A stretch of 35,854 nucleotides of DNA from Anaeromyxobacter sp. Its GTDB lineage: Bacteria; Myxococcota; Myxococcia; Myxococcales; Anaeromyxobacteraceae. The stretch is taken from assembly GCA_025360965.1 (NCBI GenBank), contig JANYBC010000224.1, positions 1 through 35,854 on the forward strand, in the 5' to 3' direction. Positions 24,045 to 29,456 of the stretch are shown here, piece by piece. The notes below the pieces were generated by a model. That model ran no database searches, was not told where the DNA came from, and saw only the letters and a program-made list of their open reading frames with translations. The translations under genes and the position numbers were made by a program. Every line of letters starts with the position of its first letter. Position 1 is the first letter of the stretch.

Positions 24045-24596
24045 ATGCGCTTCGACCGTGCCCATATCACCCTCGCCGCAGGTGCCGTGCTGACGTTGCT
24101 GGTCGCCGGCTGCGCCTCCCCCGCCACGATCGTCAAGCCCGAGACCGGCGTCAACGACGCCGTGGCCGCCGCGCCGATCTCGCCGACCCCGACGCGGGCC
24201 GTGGAGGCCCCCCCGACAGTCGCCGCCGCCTGCACCATCTCCCGCGTCCACTTCGCCTTCGACTCGGCCCTGCTCGATGGGGAGACCCGCACCGAGCTCA
24301 AGGCCGTGGCCGCCTGCCTGGAGCAGAAGCGTCCGGCCACGGTGGTGATCGAGGGGCACACCGACGAGCGCGGCACCTCCGGCTACAACGTCGCGCTCGG
24401 CAACCGGCGCGCCGACTCGGTCCGCGCCTACCTGAAGGATCTCGGGGTGGGGGCGGCCCTGCAGGTCATCTCCTTCGGCAAGGAGCTGCCGCTGGTGAGC
24501 GGCGCCGGCGAGCAGGCCTGGAGCCAGAATCGCCGAGCCGAGCTGCGGCTGCCGGGCGACCAGCGCTCCGACGGACGGCTGGTGGCCGCACGCTAA
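24045..24596 (+). CDS. pal: Peptidoglycan-associated lipoprotein, OmpA domain
   Basis: 183 residues. Lipoprotein signal with LLVAGC (Cys23), a 40-residue Pro/Ala/Thr linker, then an OmpA-like domain (about 66-170): VHFAFDSALLDGETR, the peptidoglycan-binding EGHTDERGTSGYNVALGNRR (Asp107 and the NRR arginines contact diaminopimelate) and SQNRRAELRL. It links the outer membrane to the cell wall. AGGAGG at 24033-24038, six bases before the ATG, is the strongest Shine-Dalgarno in this part of the window. None of the TolA/Q/R/B genes is adjacent, so this may be a second copy rather than the division-related Pal. Its stop overlaps the stop of the convergent sigma factor gene. Confidence 0.9.
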   Translation: MRFDRAHITLAAGAVLTLLVAGCASPATIVKPETGVNDAVAAAPISPTPTRAVEAPPTVAAACTISRVHFAFDSALLDGETRTELKAVAACLEQKRPATVVIEGHTDERGTSGYNVALGNRRADSVRAYLKDLGVGAALQVISFGKELPLVSGAGEQAWSQNRRAELRLPGDQRSDGRLVAAR

Positions 24597-25123
24597 GCCG
24601 CCATGAGCTCCCGGGCCACGCGCCGCGCCGCGGCCCGGGCGTGGCCGACCTGGCCGTTCATGGCCTGGTAGCTCTTGCCGAGCCGGCGGGCCGCGTCGGC
24701 GATCCCCTCGCCGGCCAGGTCGATGCTGACCAGGGCCTCGGCGTGGCCGGGGCAGAGCCGGGAGAGGACCCGCCCCAGATCGCTGGCGGCGTCGGCCCGC
24801 GCTTGAGCGCCGACGCTGGCGTGCGGGCTCTCCGCGGCCAGCTGGGCCCCGAGCCGCGTGCGGGTGGCCCCGTCGCGCAGCGTGGAGAGGGTGCGGTTGC
24901 GGACGATGGTGGCGAGCAGCGCCTCCGGCGTGCCGAGCGCCGCGTCATAGCGGGGAAGCGACGAGGAGAGGAAGGCGACCAGGGCATCCTGGGCCCGGTC
25001 CTCGACGTCGGGGTGCGAATGCGGGCGGCGCAGCACCTTGGCGGCGACGGCGCGGGCATGATCGAGCAGGTGGGCCCAGCGCGCGTTCTCGGTCTCTGTC
25101 CAGGTGGTCTGGCGGGTGGTCAT
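24593..25123 (-). CDS. Sigma-70 family (ECF-type) RNA polymerase sigma factor
   Basis: 176 residues. Region 2 at about 18-90 (VEDRAQDALVAFLSS, then LLATIVRNRTLSTLRDGATR), a linker, and region 4 at about 112-172 with a helix-turn-helix (EGIADAARRLGKSYQAMNGQVGHAR, positions 139-163). The promoter-recognition helix is unusual and the -10-recognition part is divergent, so this belongs to an atypical ECF group. No anti-sigma factor is adjacent on its strand. It is divergent from the second sigma factor (192 nt apart). ATG at 25123 has GGGAGA upstream. Confidence 0.75.
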   Translation of the reverse strand: MTTRQTTWTETENARWAHLLDHARAVAAKVLRRPHSHPDVEDRAQDALVAFLSSSLPRYDAALGTPEALLATIVRNRTLSTLRDGATRTRLGAQLAAESPHASVGAQARADAASDLGRVLSRLCPGHAEALVSIDLAGEGIADAARRLGKSYQAMNGQVGHARAAARRVARELMAA

Positions 25124-25315
25124 CGGCGGTGGTCTCCCGGGGCGGAAGGCCCCTCTGCAGTGAAAACGCCGCCGCTGCCACATCCGGCTACCTGGGGCGT
25201 CCCGCGGGCCGCTTCAAGCAGGCGCCAGCACGGGCGAATCAGGAATCTTCGGGCCCTGGAATTCCGGCCCGCCCCTGCCCTGGAAGGCTGGGGCAGGTTA
25301 CCCTCAGCGCTCGCG

Positions 25316-26095
25316 ATGGAGCACCCCACCCCAGCCGAGCAGGGACCGAGCACCGAGCGGCTCGTCGCCGAGGCCTACGACGAGCTCCGCGAGCGGGTCC
25401 GGGCCATGAGCCGCGGCGCCCCGCCCACGCTGGCCGGCACCGCCGGGCTCCACACGGCGCTGGAGCGGATCTTGCGCCGTCGCACCACCTTCCGCGACGC
25501 CCGCCACTTCACCGCCTACTGCCTCTTCCTGATCCGCCGGCTCTGGATCTCGCGCTGGCGGGCCACGGCGCGGCGGCACGGGCGGGAGGCGGCTTCGCTG
25601 CTCCCGCTGCTGACGCTGATCCACGGCGAGCCGGTGGCGGCCAGCCGTGAGGAGTCGCTGGCGGTGCTGGAGCTGCTGGCGCGCCTGCGCGCCGACCCGA
25701 ACATCTCGCGGCGGCGCCGCATCGCGCGCGCCGTGGAGTGCCACATGGTGGCAGGCTTCACCCAGGCCGAGACCGCCGACCTGCTGGGAGAGTCGAAGGG
25801 GATGGTGCAACAGCGGCTTGCCTTCTTCCTGGCCTGGGCGAGGCTGGCGGTGGCCCCGGATCTCGGCCTGGTGGAGCGGGCGGTGGCGGCGGTGGCGACG
25901 GATGGCAGGCTGGGGAGGCGGGAGCTGATCGCAGAGGCGGCGCGCCGCTACTACCTGTGCGGCGAAGCCCGGGGGGTCATCGCGGCAGCCACCGGATCGA
26001 CGCCAGGCCGGGTGGAGCAGGACCTGCAGCTCTTCGCCGCCTGGGTGGCGGCGCGCGAGGCGAAACGCGGGGCGAGAGAGGAGCTGGGCGCGTGA
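25316..26095 (+). CDS. ECF sigma factor of the kinase-associated type, with C-terminal extension
   Basis: 259 residues, longer than the usual 180-200. Region 2 (about 16-95) has AYDELRERVRAMSRG and FRDARHFTAYCLFLIRRLW, the pattern of Sigma70_ECF proteins that are paired with Ser/Thr kinases in planctomycetes and related bacteria. Region 4 (about 112-176) has GFTQAETADLLGESKGMVQQ as helix-turn-helix. Residues 180-259 are an added helical domain with a second HTH-like stretch (ARGVIAAATGSTPGRVEQ). The stop overlaps the kinase GTG by 4 nt, so stoichiometry with the kinase is probably controlled by coupling. Probably activated by phosphorylation, by analogy with ECF43-like systems. Confidence 0.72.
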   Translation: MEHPTPAEQGPSTERLVAEAYDELRERVRAMSRGAPPTLAGTAGLHTALERILRRRTTFRDARHFTAYCLFLIRRLWISRWRATARRHGREAASLLPLLTLIHGEPVAASREESLAVLELLARLRADPNISRRRRIARAVECHMVAGFTQAETADLLGESKGMVQQRLAFFLAWARLAVAPDLGLVERAVAAVATDGRLGRRELIAEAARRYYLCGEARGVIAAATGSTPGRVEQDLQLFAAWVAAREAKRGAREELGA

Positions 26096-27897
26096 CCAGG
26101 CTGGGTGCCGACGTGGTGGTGGAGCTGGTGCTGAGGCACGACCGGGGCGAGTGGCCCCGGCTCATCGACGAGCTCTGCGGCGGCGACGCCGGGCTGGCGG
26201 AGCTGGTGCGCGGCCTGCTGGCCCACTACGACCGGCCCGATGGCCCGCTGCCCTCCGGGCCCTACCCGGTGGAGCTCGGTCCGTTCACGCTGGAGCGTGA
26301 GCTGGGGGCCGGGGCGCACGGCAAGGTCTACCTGGCGCGGCGCCCGCCGCTGGAGGGGTACGTGGCCCTCAAGCTGCTGCGCCCGGGGCCGGGCATGAGC
26401 CAGTTCGTCGAGCAGGTGCGGCGCGAGGCGGGGCGGGCCCGGCGCATCCCCAGCGCCCACGTGGTGCCGGTCTTCGACGCCGGGCGCATCGAGGGCGGGC
26501 CGTTCTACGTGGAGATGGCGGTCTGCGCCGATCCCGACGAGGAGGCGCCCGGCTCGATCCGGATCGGGCGGTCGCTCCGCGAGGCCCAGCCCGGGCTCGC
26601 GCCGCTCGAGGCGGCCCGGCTGGTGGAGGACCTGGCGGGCGCCGTCCACGCCGCCCACCGGACCGGCGTCATCCACGGCGACGTGAAGCCGGAGAACGTG
26701 CTGCTCACGCCGGAGAGCCGTCGGGTCATGCTGGCCGACTTCGGCATCGCCACCTCGCTGGCGGCGGCCACCCCGGGCACGCTGAGCGGCGGGCAGGGCG
26801 GGGCTGGCGGCGCCCGCGGCTCGGCGCGGTCCCAGCCCATCGGGACGGTGGCCTACATGGCGCCCGAGCAGTGGCGAGACCGGCTGCCGCCGACGCCGTC
26901 CTCGGATGTCTACACCCTGGGTGGAACGCTCTACTTCCTGCTCTCCGGCGAGGCGCCGCACGCCGGGCGGAGCGGTGACGCCGATCCGACGCCACCGCCG
27001 CTGCCCGCCTCGGTGCCGCCGAGGCTCAGGGAGATCGTCTCCCGGGCGCTGGCCGCCAGGCCCGAGGAGCGCCCCAGCTCGGCGGGGGCCCTGGCCGAGG
27101 AGCTGCGGCGTTACCGTCGCCTGGAGCCGACCTGGCACGAGCGCCGCTCCGCGCTGCGGCGCTCGGCGCTCTTCCTGCGCCGGCACCGGGCCGAGCTGGT
27201 GGCGGTGGCGGTGGTGGTGGCGGCCCTGCTGCCGCTCATGGTGGCCGGGTACCAGCTGCTCACCGGCAAGGTGGTCGAGCTGGCGGCGCGCGAGGCGGCG
27301 CTGGGCGGCAAGCTCGAGGAGCTGGAGCGCTCCCGCCGGTCGCTCGAGGCCGACATCGCCAGGCTCGAAGGGGCGGCGGACGCCAAGCAGAAGGAGCTGA
27401 AGCGGGTCGAGGCGCGGCTGGCGCAGCTGCCGAAGCTGGAGCAGGCGCTCGGCGCGGCGCGGGAGCAGGCCGACCACCAGCGTGAGGTGGCGACCCGCGC
27501 CGAGGGCGAGGCTCGGGGAGCGGCCAGGAAGGTGGCGACCCTGGAAGGGCAGCTGGTCGCGGTCCGCGAGACGTCGGCGGAGGCGGAGCGGCGCGAGATC
27601 ATGACGCTCAAGGAGGCCGGGCGGGCGGCCGGTGAGCGCGACGAGGCGCGCAAGCGGGTGACCGAGGTCGAGGCGCAGGGGCGGGCGCTCGAGGCCCGGA
27701 AGACAGCGCTGGAGAAGGAGCTCCGCGAAAACGCCGCCGCGCTGGGTGCGGCTCGGGCGCTCGCCGAGCGGGAGGCGACCAGGGCCGCCGGCGCGGAGCG
27801 GGAGCGTGATGCCCTGCGCGCTCGCACCGGCGGCGGGGCGGGGGTGGCCGGGAGCACCGGCGGGACCGGCGGGACCGGCGTCGAGCCGGGGCGCTGA
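26092..27897 (+). CDS. Transmembrane Ser/Thr protein kinase with long coiled coil
   Basis: 601 residues. N-terminal helical region (1-60), kinase domain about 65-345: glycine loop GAGAHGKV (73-80), Lys94 (VALKLL), catalytic loop IHGDVKPEN with Asp197 and Asn202, DFG 216-218, APE 257-259. Gly196 replaces the Arg of the HRD motif, so this is a non-RD kinase. A Gly/Ser-rich insert (about 225-248) lies in the activation segment. One membrane helix (about 368-388) is followed by a continuous charged coiled coil (about 395-575) and a short Gly/Thr tail, presumably periplasmic. No PASTA or PQQ sensor is present. It is coupled to the ECF gene upstream, its likely phosphorylation target. Confidence 0.88.
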   Translation: MTRLGADVVVELVLRHDRGEWPRLIDELCGGDAGLAELVRGLLAHYDRPDGPLPSGPYPVELGPFTLERELGAGAHGKVYLARRPPLEGYVALKLLRPGPGMSQFVEQVRREAGRARRIPSAHVVPVFDAGRIEGGPFYVEMAVCADPDEEAPGSIRIGRSLREAQPGLAPLEAARLVEDLAGAVHAAHRTGVIHGDVKPENVLLTPESRRVMLADFGIATSLAAATPGTLSGGQGGAGGARGSARSQPIGTVAYMAPEQWRDRLPPTPSSDVYTLGGTLYFLLSGEAPHAGRSGDADPTPPPLPASVPPRLREIVSRALAARPEERPSSAGALAEELRRYRRLEPTWHERRSALRRSALFLRRHRAELVAVAVVVAALLPLMVAGYQLLTGKVVELAAREAALGGKLEELERSRRSLEADIARLEGAADAKQKELKRVEARLAQLPKLEQALGAAREQADHQREVATRAEGEARGAARKVATLEGQLVAVRETSAEAERREIMTLKEAGRAAGERDEARKRVTEVEAQGRALEARKTALEKELRENAAALGAARALAEREATRAAGAERERDALRARTGGGAGVAGSTGGTGGTGVEPGR

Positions 27898-27979: not shown

Positions 27980-28288
27980 ATGATCCTGCTCACCCCCACC
28001 GCCGTCGTCGCCTGCCTGGCGCTGCTGGCCGTCCCCGATGCGCCTGCCACCCAGCCGGCCGGGCCGCCCGCCACCACGGCGGGCGGTGGGGCCACGGCCG
28101 ACAAGGCGACCCGGAAGTCCGCCGCCCCGGTGAAGGCACCTGCGCCGGCCAAGGCCGCTGCGCCTCCCAAGGCGGCCGATGCGCCCGGGGCCCCGGGCCC
28201 GGGCAACGGCGCTCCCGGCAAGCCGGCCGAGGCCAGGCCGGCCGAGGCCAAGCCGTGCGAGCCGGTCAAGCCCTGCTCCATCGACTGA
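27980..28288 (+). CDS. Small secreted Ala/Pro-rich protein with C-terminal CX5C
   Basis: 102 residues. The ATG at 27980 gives a hydrophobic N-terminus (MILLTPTAVVACLALLAV) that looks like a signal peptide or anchor. The Cys at 12 might be a lipobox, but the preceding hydrophobic stretch is short. Residues 25-88 are a low-complexity Ala/Pro/Lys/Gly segment, probably extended and cell-wall spanning. It ends PCEPVKPCSID, two cysteines five residues apart. No known family. The VKOR-DsbA gene starts ten bases after its stop, so both are almost certainly cotranscribed and the CX5C may be a substrate or redox partner. An upstream ATG at 27932 is possible but gives a poorer signal. Confidence 0.65.
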   Translation: MILLTPTAVVACLALLAVPDAPATQPAGPPATTAGGGATADKATRKSAAPVKAPAPAKAAAPPKAADAPGAPGPGNGAPGKPAEARPAEAKPCEPVKPCSID

Positions 28289-28298
28289 CTCGAGCGCG

Positions 28299-29456
28299 AT
28301 GGCCCGCAGACCTGCTCCGCCTCCCCCCCCCTCCGCGCCGCGCGCCGCCCTGGCAGCCTCGCTGGGGCTCGCCCTCGTCGGCATGGTGCTCGCCTGGCTG
28401 CTGGTCCGGGTCCACCACGACGCCGCGGCCGGGCTGACCAGCTTCTGCACCATCAGCGAGGAGATCAACTGCGACAAGGTGGCGCTGAGCCGCTGGTCGG
28501 TGCTGTTGGGCGTCCCGGTCGCGGCCTGGGGGCTGGTCGGCTACGCGCTGGCGGCGGCGCTGTCGGCCTGGGGGCTGTCGTCGCGCCGGCTCCATCCGCG
28601 CTGGCCGGCCGGGCTGCTGCTGCTCTTCGGCGCGGCGGCGGTCTCGCTCTCGCTGGTCCTGGCCTGGATCTCCAAGGCGATCATCGGCGCCTGGTGCCTG
28701 CTCTGTATCGGCTCGTGGGCCGCGTCGCTCGGGCTGCTGGTGGCGGCATGGTGGGCCTGCCGGCCGGCCGGGGCGATGGCCTCGATCCGGGAGGACCTGA
28801 GGGCGGCGGGGCGGCAGCCGCGGCGGGTGGCACTGCTGGCGCTGCTCGGCCTGGCCGGCCTGCTGGCGCTGGTGGCCGGATATCCTCGCCTCGAGGCCGG
28901 TGCGCGGAAGGCCGGCACCGGCGGTTCGACCTCCGGGCCGAACCTGGTGGCGCTCCCGCCACCGCTGCCGGCCGCCCTCGGCCCGGCGGTGCTCTTCAGC
29001 GACTACGAGTGCCCGTTCTGCGCGCTGGCCCACGACGAGCTGCGCGAGGCCCTCCGCAAGCGGCCCGACATCCAGGTGGTGCGGCGCCACTTCCCGCTCG
29101 ACCAGTCCTGCAACCCGATCGTCCTGCGCCCCATGCACCTGAAGGCCTGCCAGCTGGCGCGCGCCGCCATCTGCGCCGAGGCCCAGGGGCAGTTCGAGGC
29201 GATGGACGATGCGCTCTACGCCAGCCAGAAGGCGCCGGCGCCGGTGGAGGAGTTGGCGGCGCGGCTCAAGCTCGACCTGGGGCGCTTCAAGGCCTGCCTC
29301 ACGTCGTCTGCGACCGAGGCGAGACTGGCGGATGACGTCGCGGCGGGGATGAGGCTCAAGCTGCGGTCGACGCCGACCTACGTCGTCGACGGGACCCTTC
29401 ACGAGGGAAAGCTGCCGCTGGAGCGCTTCCCGCCGCAGGCGCAGGTCCTGAAGTAG
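28299..29456 (+). CDS. VKOR-DsbA fusion (periplasmic disulfide-forming enzyme)
   Basis: 385 residues. A VKOR domain (about 20-160) with several membrane helices: Cys50 and Cys58 on the loop (FCTISEEINCDKV), LLGVPVAAWGLVGY, and the quinone-proximal CxxC Cys133-Cys136 (GAWCLLCIG). A further membrane segment (about 176-194) leads to a periplasmic DsbA-like thioredoxin domain (about 215-385) with active site CPFC (238-241) and cis-proline STPTYVVDG (Pro359). Further Cys at 271, 284, 292, 333. VKOR re-oxidises the thioredoxin by passing electrons to quinone, so oxidative folding is self-contained. It replaces DsbB. Ten bases after the small CX5C protein and convergent with the S41 protease gene. 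Confidence 0.92.
   Translation: MARRPAPPPPPSAPRAALAASLGLALVGMVLAWLLVRVHHDAAAGLTSFCTISEEINCDKVALSRWSVLLGVPVAAWGLVGYALAAALSAWGLSSRRLHPRWPAGLLLLFGAAAVSLSLVLAWISKAIIGAWCLLCIGSWAASLGLLVAAWWACRPAGAMASIREDLRAAGRQPRRVALLALLGLAGLLALVAGYPRLEAGARKAGTGGSTSGPNLVALPPPLPAALGPAVLFSDYECPFCALAHDELREALRKRPDIQVVRRHFPLDQSCNPIVLRPMHLKACQLARAAICAEAQGQFEAMDDALYASQKAPAPVEELAARLKLDLGRFKACLTSSATEARLADDVAAGMRLKLRSTPTYVVDGTLHEGKLPLERFPPQAQVLK

Follow-up and report, generated by a model that had tools for sequence, protein, structure and literature searches.

Two divergent sigma factor genes and a coupled transmembrane kinase gene in Anaeromyxobacter-type bacteria suggest a two-step gene-control relay

Pairs of ECF sigma factors and kinases are already known, one of them regulating a T6SS (PMC8999054; PMC13147305). 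ECF43 factors are inactive until their cognate kinase phosphorylates a threonine in sigma2.2, and in two of them, EcfP and EcfK, the DAED of this region is replaced by STTA/QTTA containing the phosphorylated threonine (PMC8999054; PMC13147305).

The window analyzed here is a whole contig of 35,854 nucleotides (G000:C194) from a 3.8 Mb genome, with Anaeromyxobacter oryzisoli and two Myxococcales MAGs among its near relatives. The following features were found in the region of interest:

24045 to 24596, plus strand: OmpA/Pal-like lipoprotein gene (ompA)
24593 to 25123, minus strand: sigA, ECF sigma factor gene, from the ATG at 25123 to the stop at 24593, 176 aa
25124 to 25315, no strand: divergent control region between sigA and sigB, exactly 192 nt
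25164 to 25191, minus strand: promoter-like motif of sigA, GTAGCC-N17-CGTTT, kept in five genomes
25299 to 25304, plus strand: TACCCT, a sigma70-like -10 (TANNCT) just 5' of sigB
25316 to 26095, plus strand: sigB, TIGR02999/ECF43-like factor gene, from the ATG at 25316 to the TGA at 26095, 259 aa
25856 to 26068, plus strand: C-terminal domain of sigB (residues 181-251), predicted second sigma4-like four-helix HTH
26092 to 26095, plus strand: GTGA, overlap of the kinase start with the sigB stop
26092 to 27897, plus strand: Hanks-type Ser/Thr kinase gene, from the GTG at 26092 to the TGA at 27897, 601 aa (PF00069, E 8e-27)

Two elements of the original prediction were thereby recovered, namely that two sigma genes diverge from a 192-nt region (25124-25315; sigA on the minus and sigB on the plus strand), and that the rightward one is coupled by the GTGA at 26092-26095 to the gene of a membrane kinase, here a Ser/Thr kinase with one transmembrane segment. 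The stops of sigA and ompA also overlap, tail-to-tail, by 4 nt (24593-24596). SigA matched the Pfam domain Sigma70_r2 with 28.3 bits (cut-off 24) and SigB matched PF07638 (Sigma70_ECF) with 26.6 bits (cut-off 21.1), while the match of the latter to TIGR02999 (E 4e-12), at 46 bits, lies under the curated cut-off of 126 bits. Downstream of the kinase gene, positions 27980-29456 encode a small secreted Ala/Pro-rich protein ending in PCEPVKPCSID, followed by an apparent VKOR/DsbA-type fusion, the gene of which is conserved 3' of the kinase in G003 only.

A sigma gene beside a gene for a Ser/Thr kinase with one transmembrane segment is also found in EcfP-PknT of Vibrio parahaemolyticus and EcfK-PknS of Xanthomonas citri, and SigB shares with these factors the loss of the sigma2.2 DAED and a threonine at the phosphorylated position. 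A further likeness to EcfK-PknS is seen in G016, where the sigB-kinase pair adjoins a T6SS operon. Unlike in both known systems, however, a second, divergent ECF gene (sigA) is present, sigma4 is duplicated in SigB, the SigB motif is AGTA and not QTTA/STTA (with HE changed to HT in five close copies), the catalytic loop of the kinase reads HGD, and there is no strict link to a T6SS. SigB also resembles ECF41, ECF42 and CorE, i.e. factors with C-terminal regulatory extensions, in having an extra domain behind sigma4, but this domain is itself sigma4-like and not SnoaL-like, TPR or metal-binding. SigA, in turn, recalls the ECF39 factor SigE, which is controlled transcriptionally by CseBC without an anti-sigma factor, in that it appears to be free of post-translational control and would be set by its promoter; the regulator proposed upstream of it differs in being itself a sigma factor, controlled by a Ser/Thr kinase. 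The literature covered, which was partial, yielded no description of a conserved divergent second ECF gene or of a duplicated sigma4 in a kinase-linked sigma factor. Similarly, none were found in a search on tandem sigma4 domains or kinase-linked sigma pairs, which, with partial coverage, is weak evidence.

In 99 relatives searched with the single proteins, orthologues of sigA and sigB came up in G001, G003, G021 and G022, as well as remote ones, at about 30% identity, in G016. Profile searches of 195 Myxococcota genomes returned close sigA relatives in six of these (G000, i.e. that of the window, G001, G003, G016, G021 and G022) and full-length sigB relatives in seven, namely the same six and G012, while the next-best sigB matches ended at, or soon after, the first sigma4. 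The scores of the members themselves are inflated, since the profiles were built from those very sequences; informative are the gap to all other matches and the agreement with the single-protein searches. In a scan of 84,980 species, close sigB relatives were only found in Anaeromyxobacter-type genomes.

Comparison of neighborhoods, the check attached to the original prediction, showed the leftward sigma gene to be kept beside the other two, with sigA divergent from sigB-kinase and the trio intact in all six sigA-bearing genomes. Four genomic settings were distinguished: flanks common to the window and G003, flanks common to G021 and G022, a third set of flanks in G001, with an unrelated acyltransferase-like gene between sigA and sigB, and T6SS genes adjoining the module in G016. 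As the sigma orthologues are adjacent and divergent in G003, G021, G022, G001 (with one gene between) and G016, the locus is not a chance neighborhood. The trio could still be adjacent without function, as a syntenic leftover, and its restriction to just six genomes of one family and the flanking genes common to the window and G003 would agree with this. We regard such an explanation as quite improbable, however, as the flanks vary over the four settings while the trio is constant, other genera and most genomes of genus g4 lack both sigma genes, and the gene order persists in G016 at about 30% protein identity. The differing flanks fit horizontal transfer, but the protein identities are mixed: that of SigB was 71% for G001 versus 78% for G021, against 90% versus 86% for a reference protein, and the kinase and SigA did not clearly show this contrast.

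An OmpA-like gene accompanies the module in G000, G021, G022 and G016. In G003, a decayed OmpA-like lipoprotein gene (L023 8564-8686) was found, with only about 41 C-terminal residues recognizable, and no such gene was found beside sigA in the fetched part of G001. With this remnant in the one genome and none seen next to sigA in the other, ompA was rejected as an obligatory member. The locus of G012 (L028 7263-10027) contains a sigB-type factor with a second sigma4 domain and a kinase, without sigA, and is thus well suited for judging, by comparison, what sigA contributes.

While a classical ECF factor would end after sigma4, SigB continues for about 75 residues with a second predicted sigma4 fold. 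From residue 181 onward, this extension can be aligned gap-free with the first sigma4 of the protein across 45 columns (hhalign probability 96.5, score 47.7), compared with a best score of 13.4 in 60 column-shuffled control runs. It was modeled as a four-helix HTH with a mean pLDDT of 86.8, and its best structural matches in Foldseek were mostly sigma4 domains, including those of Mycobacterium tuberculosis SigL, SigD and SigC and of E. coli sigmaE, although the KorA repressor was listed as well. The target-normalized TM-scores were about 0.7-0.8 and the Foldseek probabilities 0.99-1.00, with E-values of 0.07-0.3 for what is a very small domain. No Pfam model matched the extension, and a fold search with the whole SigB model gave no significant match, probably because the sigma2 part was poorly modeled from four sequences. 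As judged from alignment and model, the layout of SigB is sigma2-sigma4-sigma4'.

The sigma2.2 region of SigB reads L-AGTA-GL-HT, the acidic DAED motif being lost. In the five Anaeromyxobacter-type copies no acidic residue is left in the motif, where even the glutamate of the 'QE' position is a threonine, while SigB of G016 keeps acidic residues (DGTA..HE). All seven relatives share Thr42, which corresponds to the phosphorylated residue of EcfP and EcfK, together with its neighbors G41 and A43. This invariance alone is not specific, since most other TIGR02999-type factors of the phylum with a readable motif have the same threonine (xPTA..(H/N)(E/D)). These factors are only about 155-197 aa long, and several adjoin a kinase gene. 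The threonine is thus characteristic of the family, and what sets SigB apart is its extension. The seven sigB loci also share a Hanks-type Ser/Thr kinase gene directly downstream. By analogy with ECF43, where DAED loss and a threonine at the phosphorylated position likewise go together, SigB probably behaves as a kinase-activated factor of this type, and the prediction that phosphorylation activates a sigma factor is supported for the rightward one by the lost acidic motif and the invariant threonine.

Alternatively, SigB could have lost its function as a sigma factor and act on the sigA promoter as a DNA-binding regulator under kinase control, or as a decoy using its two sigma4-like domains. 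Its sigma2 is weakly recognized (Sigma70_r2, E 0.066), the whole motif is uncharged, including the change of HE to HT, and there are two HTH domains. This reading is nevertheless improbable in our view, as the TIGR02999 and PF07638 matches span sigma2 through sigma4 and, in close orthologues, sigma2 belongs to the most strongly conserved parts of the protein.

The kinase has its kinase domain N-terminal of a single clear transmembrane segment at about residues 370-390, which is followed by a long, charged, coiled-coil-like C-terminal region of about 210 aa that is probably periplasmic. In all seven copies the HRD of the catalytic loop is replaced, by HGD or, in G012, HSD. HGD in place of HRD suggests that a kinase needs no activation-loop phosphorylation. 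The kinase gene overlaps sigB by 4 nt in G000, G003, G021 and G001 and by 17 nt in G016, whereas a gap, small in G022 (as called) and of 185 nt in G012, separates the two elsewhere.

SigA has the usual length of an ECF factor and retains the acidic sigma2.2 motif DVED..QD in five close orthologues (HPDVEDRAQD in the window). No candidate anti-sigma gene was found beside sigA in the six loci, its neighbors being ompA, an uncharacterized 156-aa gene (G016), a 328-aa gene (G001) and sigB or the acyltransferase-like gene. Since the acidic motif is kept and an adjoining anti-sigma gene is lacking, SigA is probably active once made, with control likely at its promoter. In G003, a few kb downstream of the module (L023 15421-16892), yet another ECF-like sigma gene, the third, is accompanied by what looks like the gene of a zinc-finger anti-sigma factor.

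On the sigA strand, the control region contains a two-block motif, GTRGCC-N11-CGGYGGCGYTT, with identical spacing in five genomes. Mean pairwise identity is 0.93 and 0.89 for the two blocks, but 0.43 for the spacer between them and 0.34 and 0.43 for the sequences upstream and downstream, respectively. From its sequence the motif is readable as an ECF-like promoter with a -35 of GTAGCC, a 17-nt spacer and a -10 of CGYTT (GTRGCC-N17-CGYTT). In G001, where another gene lies between sigA and sigB, the motif remains with sigA, and it is absent before sigA of G016. The possibility that the motif is coding sequence (upstream ATG at 25183) appears unlikely, because the alignment of some pairs needs a 1-nt indel between the motif and the sigA start. 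The exact motif occurs once in G000, at sigA, and has between zero and five matches per genome across 18 genomes, without excess over the reversed control; degenerate copies were equal in number to the control and to genomes without the module. A wider regulon based on this motif was consequently rejected.

Within 70 nt upstream of sigB, TANNNT occurs just once in each of the six genomes, in every case as TANNCT, and in five of these genomes it lies 11 to 22 nt from the sigB start. This is reminiscent of a sigma70-type -10 followed by a very short leader, on weaker evidence than that for the sigA motif. TANNCT is the only recurrent element there, no conserved ECF-like motif being found. A reverse order, with SigA on top raising sigB and the kinase from a plus-strand promoter, would agree with the shared divergent region and with a SigA that looks active without modification, but as TANNCT alone recurs before sigB, we hold it to be very improbable. 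The possible two-sigma cascade considered in the original prediction is compatible with the promoter anatomy, ECF-like before sigA and sigma70-like before sigB.

The main rival, which we consider unlikely, is that SigA autoregulates through GTRGCC-N17-CGYTT, while SigB and the kinase form a parallel arm that shares the region, with the kinase perhaps acting on both factors. Autoregulation is common among ECF factors, and the motif, which in its exact form is confined essentially to sigA, comes and goes with the close sigA type. A self-activating sigma factor without an adjoining anti-sigma would, however, have no obvious off-switch, and the constant adjacency of sigA to sigB and the kinase would be left unexplained.

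The arrangement we propose instead is a relay. A basal sigma70-type, possibly leaderless promoter, suggested by TANNCT, would make SigB and the kinase, keeping inactive SigB on hand until an envelope signal acting on the periplasmic C-terminal region turns the kinase on. The kinase would then phosphorylate Thr42 in sigma2.2, adding the missing negative charge and letting SigB~P bind RNA polymerase, a step supported by the motif loss, the invariance of the threonine and the known EcfP/EcfK mechanism. SigB~P, perhaps aided by its second sigma4 domain, would transcribe sigA from GTRGCC-N17-CGYTT in the 192-nt region, and SigA would drive an output regulon, possibly including sigA itself. In favor of this are the trio's persistence in six genomes and four settings, Thr42 with G41/A43 and the uncharged motif of the five Anaeromyxobacter-type copies, the intact DVED..QD of SigA without a neighboring anti-sigma, the conserved sigA motif that follows sigA in G001, and the single TANNCT before sigB in 6/6 genomes. 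Against it speak the commonness of the threonine in TIGR02999-type factors, G016 with its missing sigA motif and its DGTA..HE, the lack of a wider sigA-motif regulon, and G012, which has sigB without sigA. If the kinase activates SigB, the step from SigB to sigA is somewhat favored, while the relay as a whole is put forward tentatively, at slightly below even. The stronger version, in which a phosphorylation-gated SigB reads an enlarged promoter or bridges divergent promoters with its two sigma4 domains and serves almost solely to activate a single further sigma factor, i.e. a phosphorylation-to-sigma-to-sigma relay, is speculative and rather unlikely.

As to the output, the module of G016 (L027 1490-18348) lies beside a T6SS operon with FHA, ClpV-like AAA, TssG, TssF, Hcp, VipB and VipA and an RHS-repeat protein. 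A T6SS sheath gene is also present in G000 and G021, away from the module, and was not found in G003, G022 or G001 (79% complete). Although G016 is suggestive, T6SS control was rejected as a general function in view of the missing sheath gene in G003 and G022.

Lastly, the study of direct sigma factor phosphorylation is young, and the very few cases worked out so far are, in the literature covered, all single sigma/kinase pairs. With a second sigma factor conserved beside the pair and equipped with a promoter of its own, the trio allows a clear-cut test of whether sigma/kinase pairs can stand at the top of sigma cascades, and the duplicated sigma4 allows a natural test of the role of a second -35-binding fold in a sigma factor. 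Present in a few soil bacteria of the Anaeromyxobacter type, the trio suggests a relay of gene control in two steps that has not been described before.
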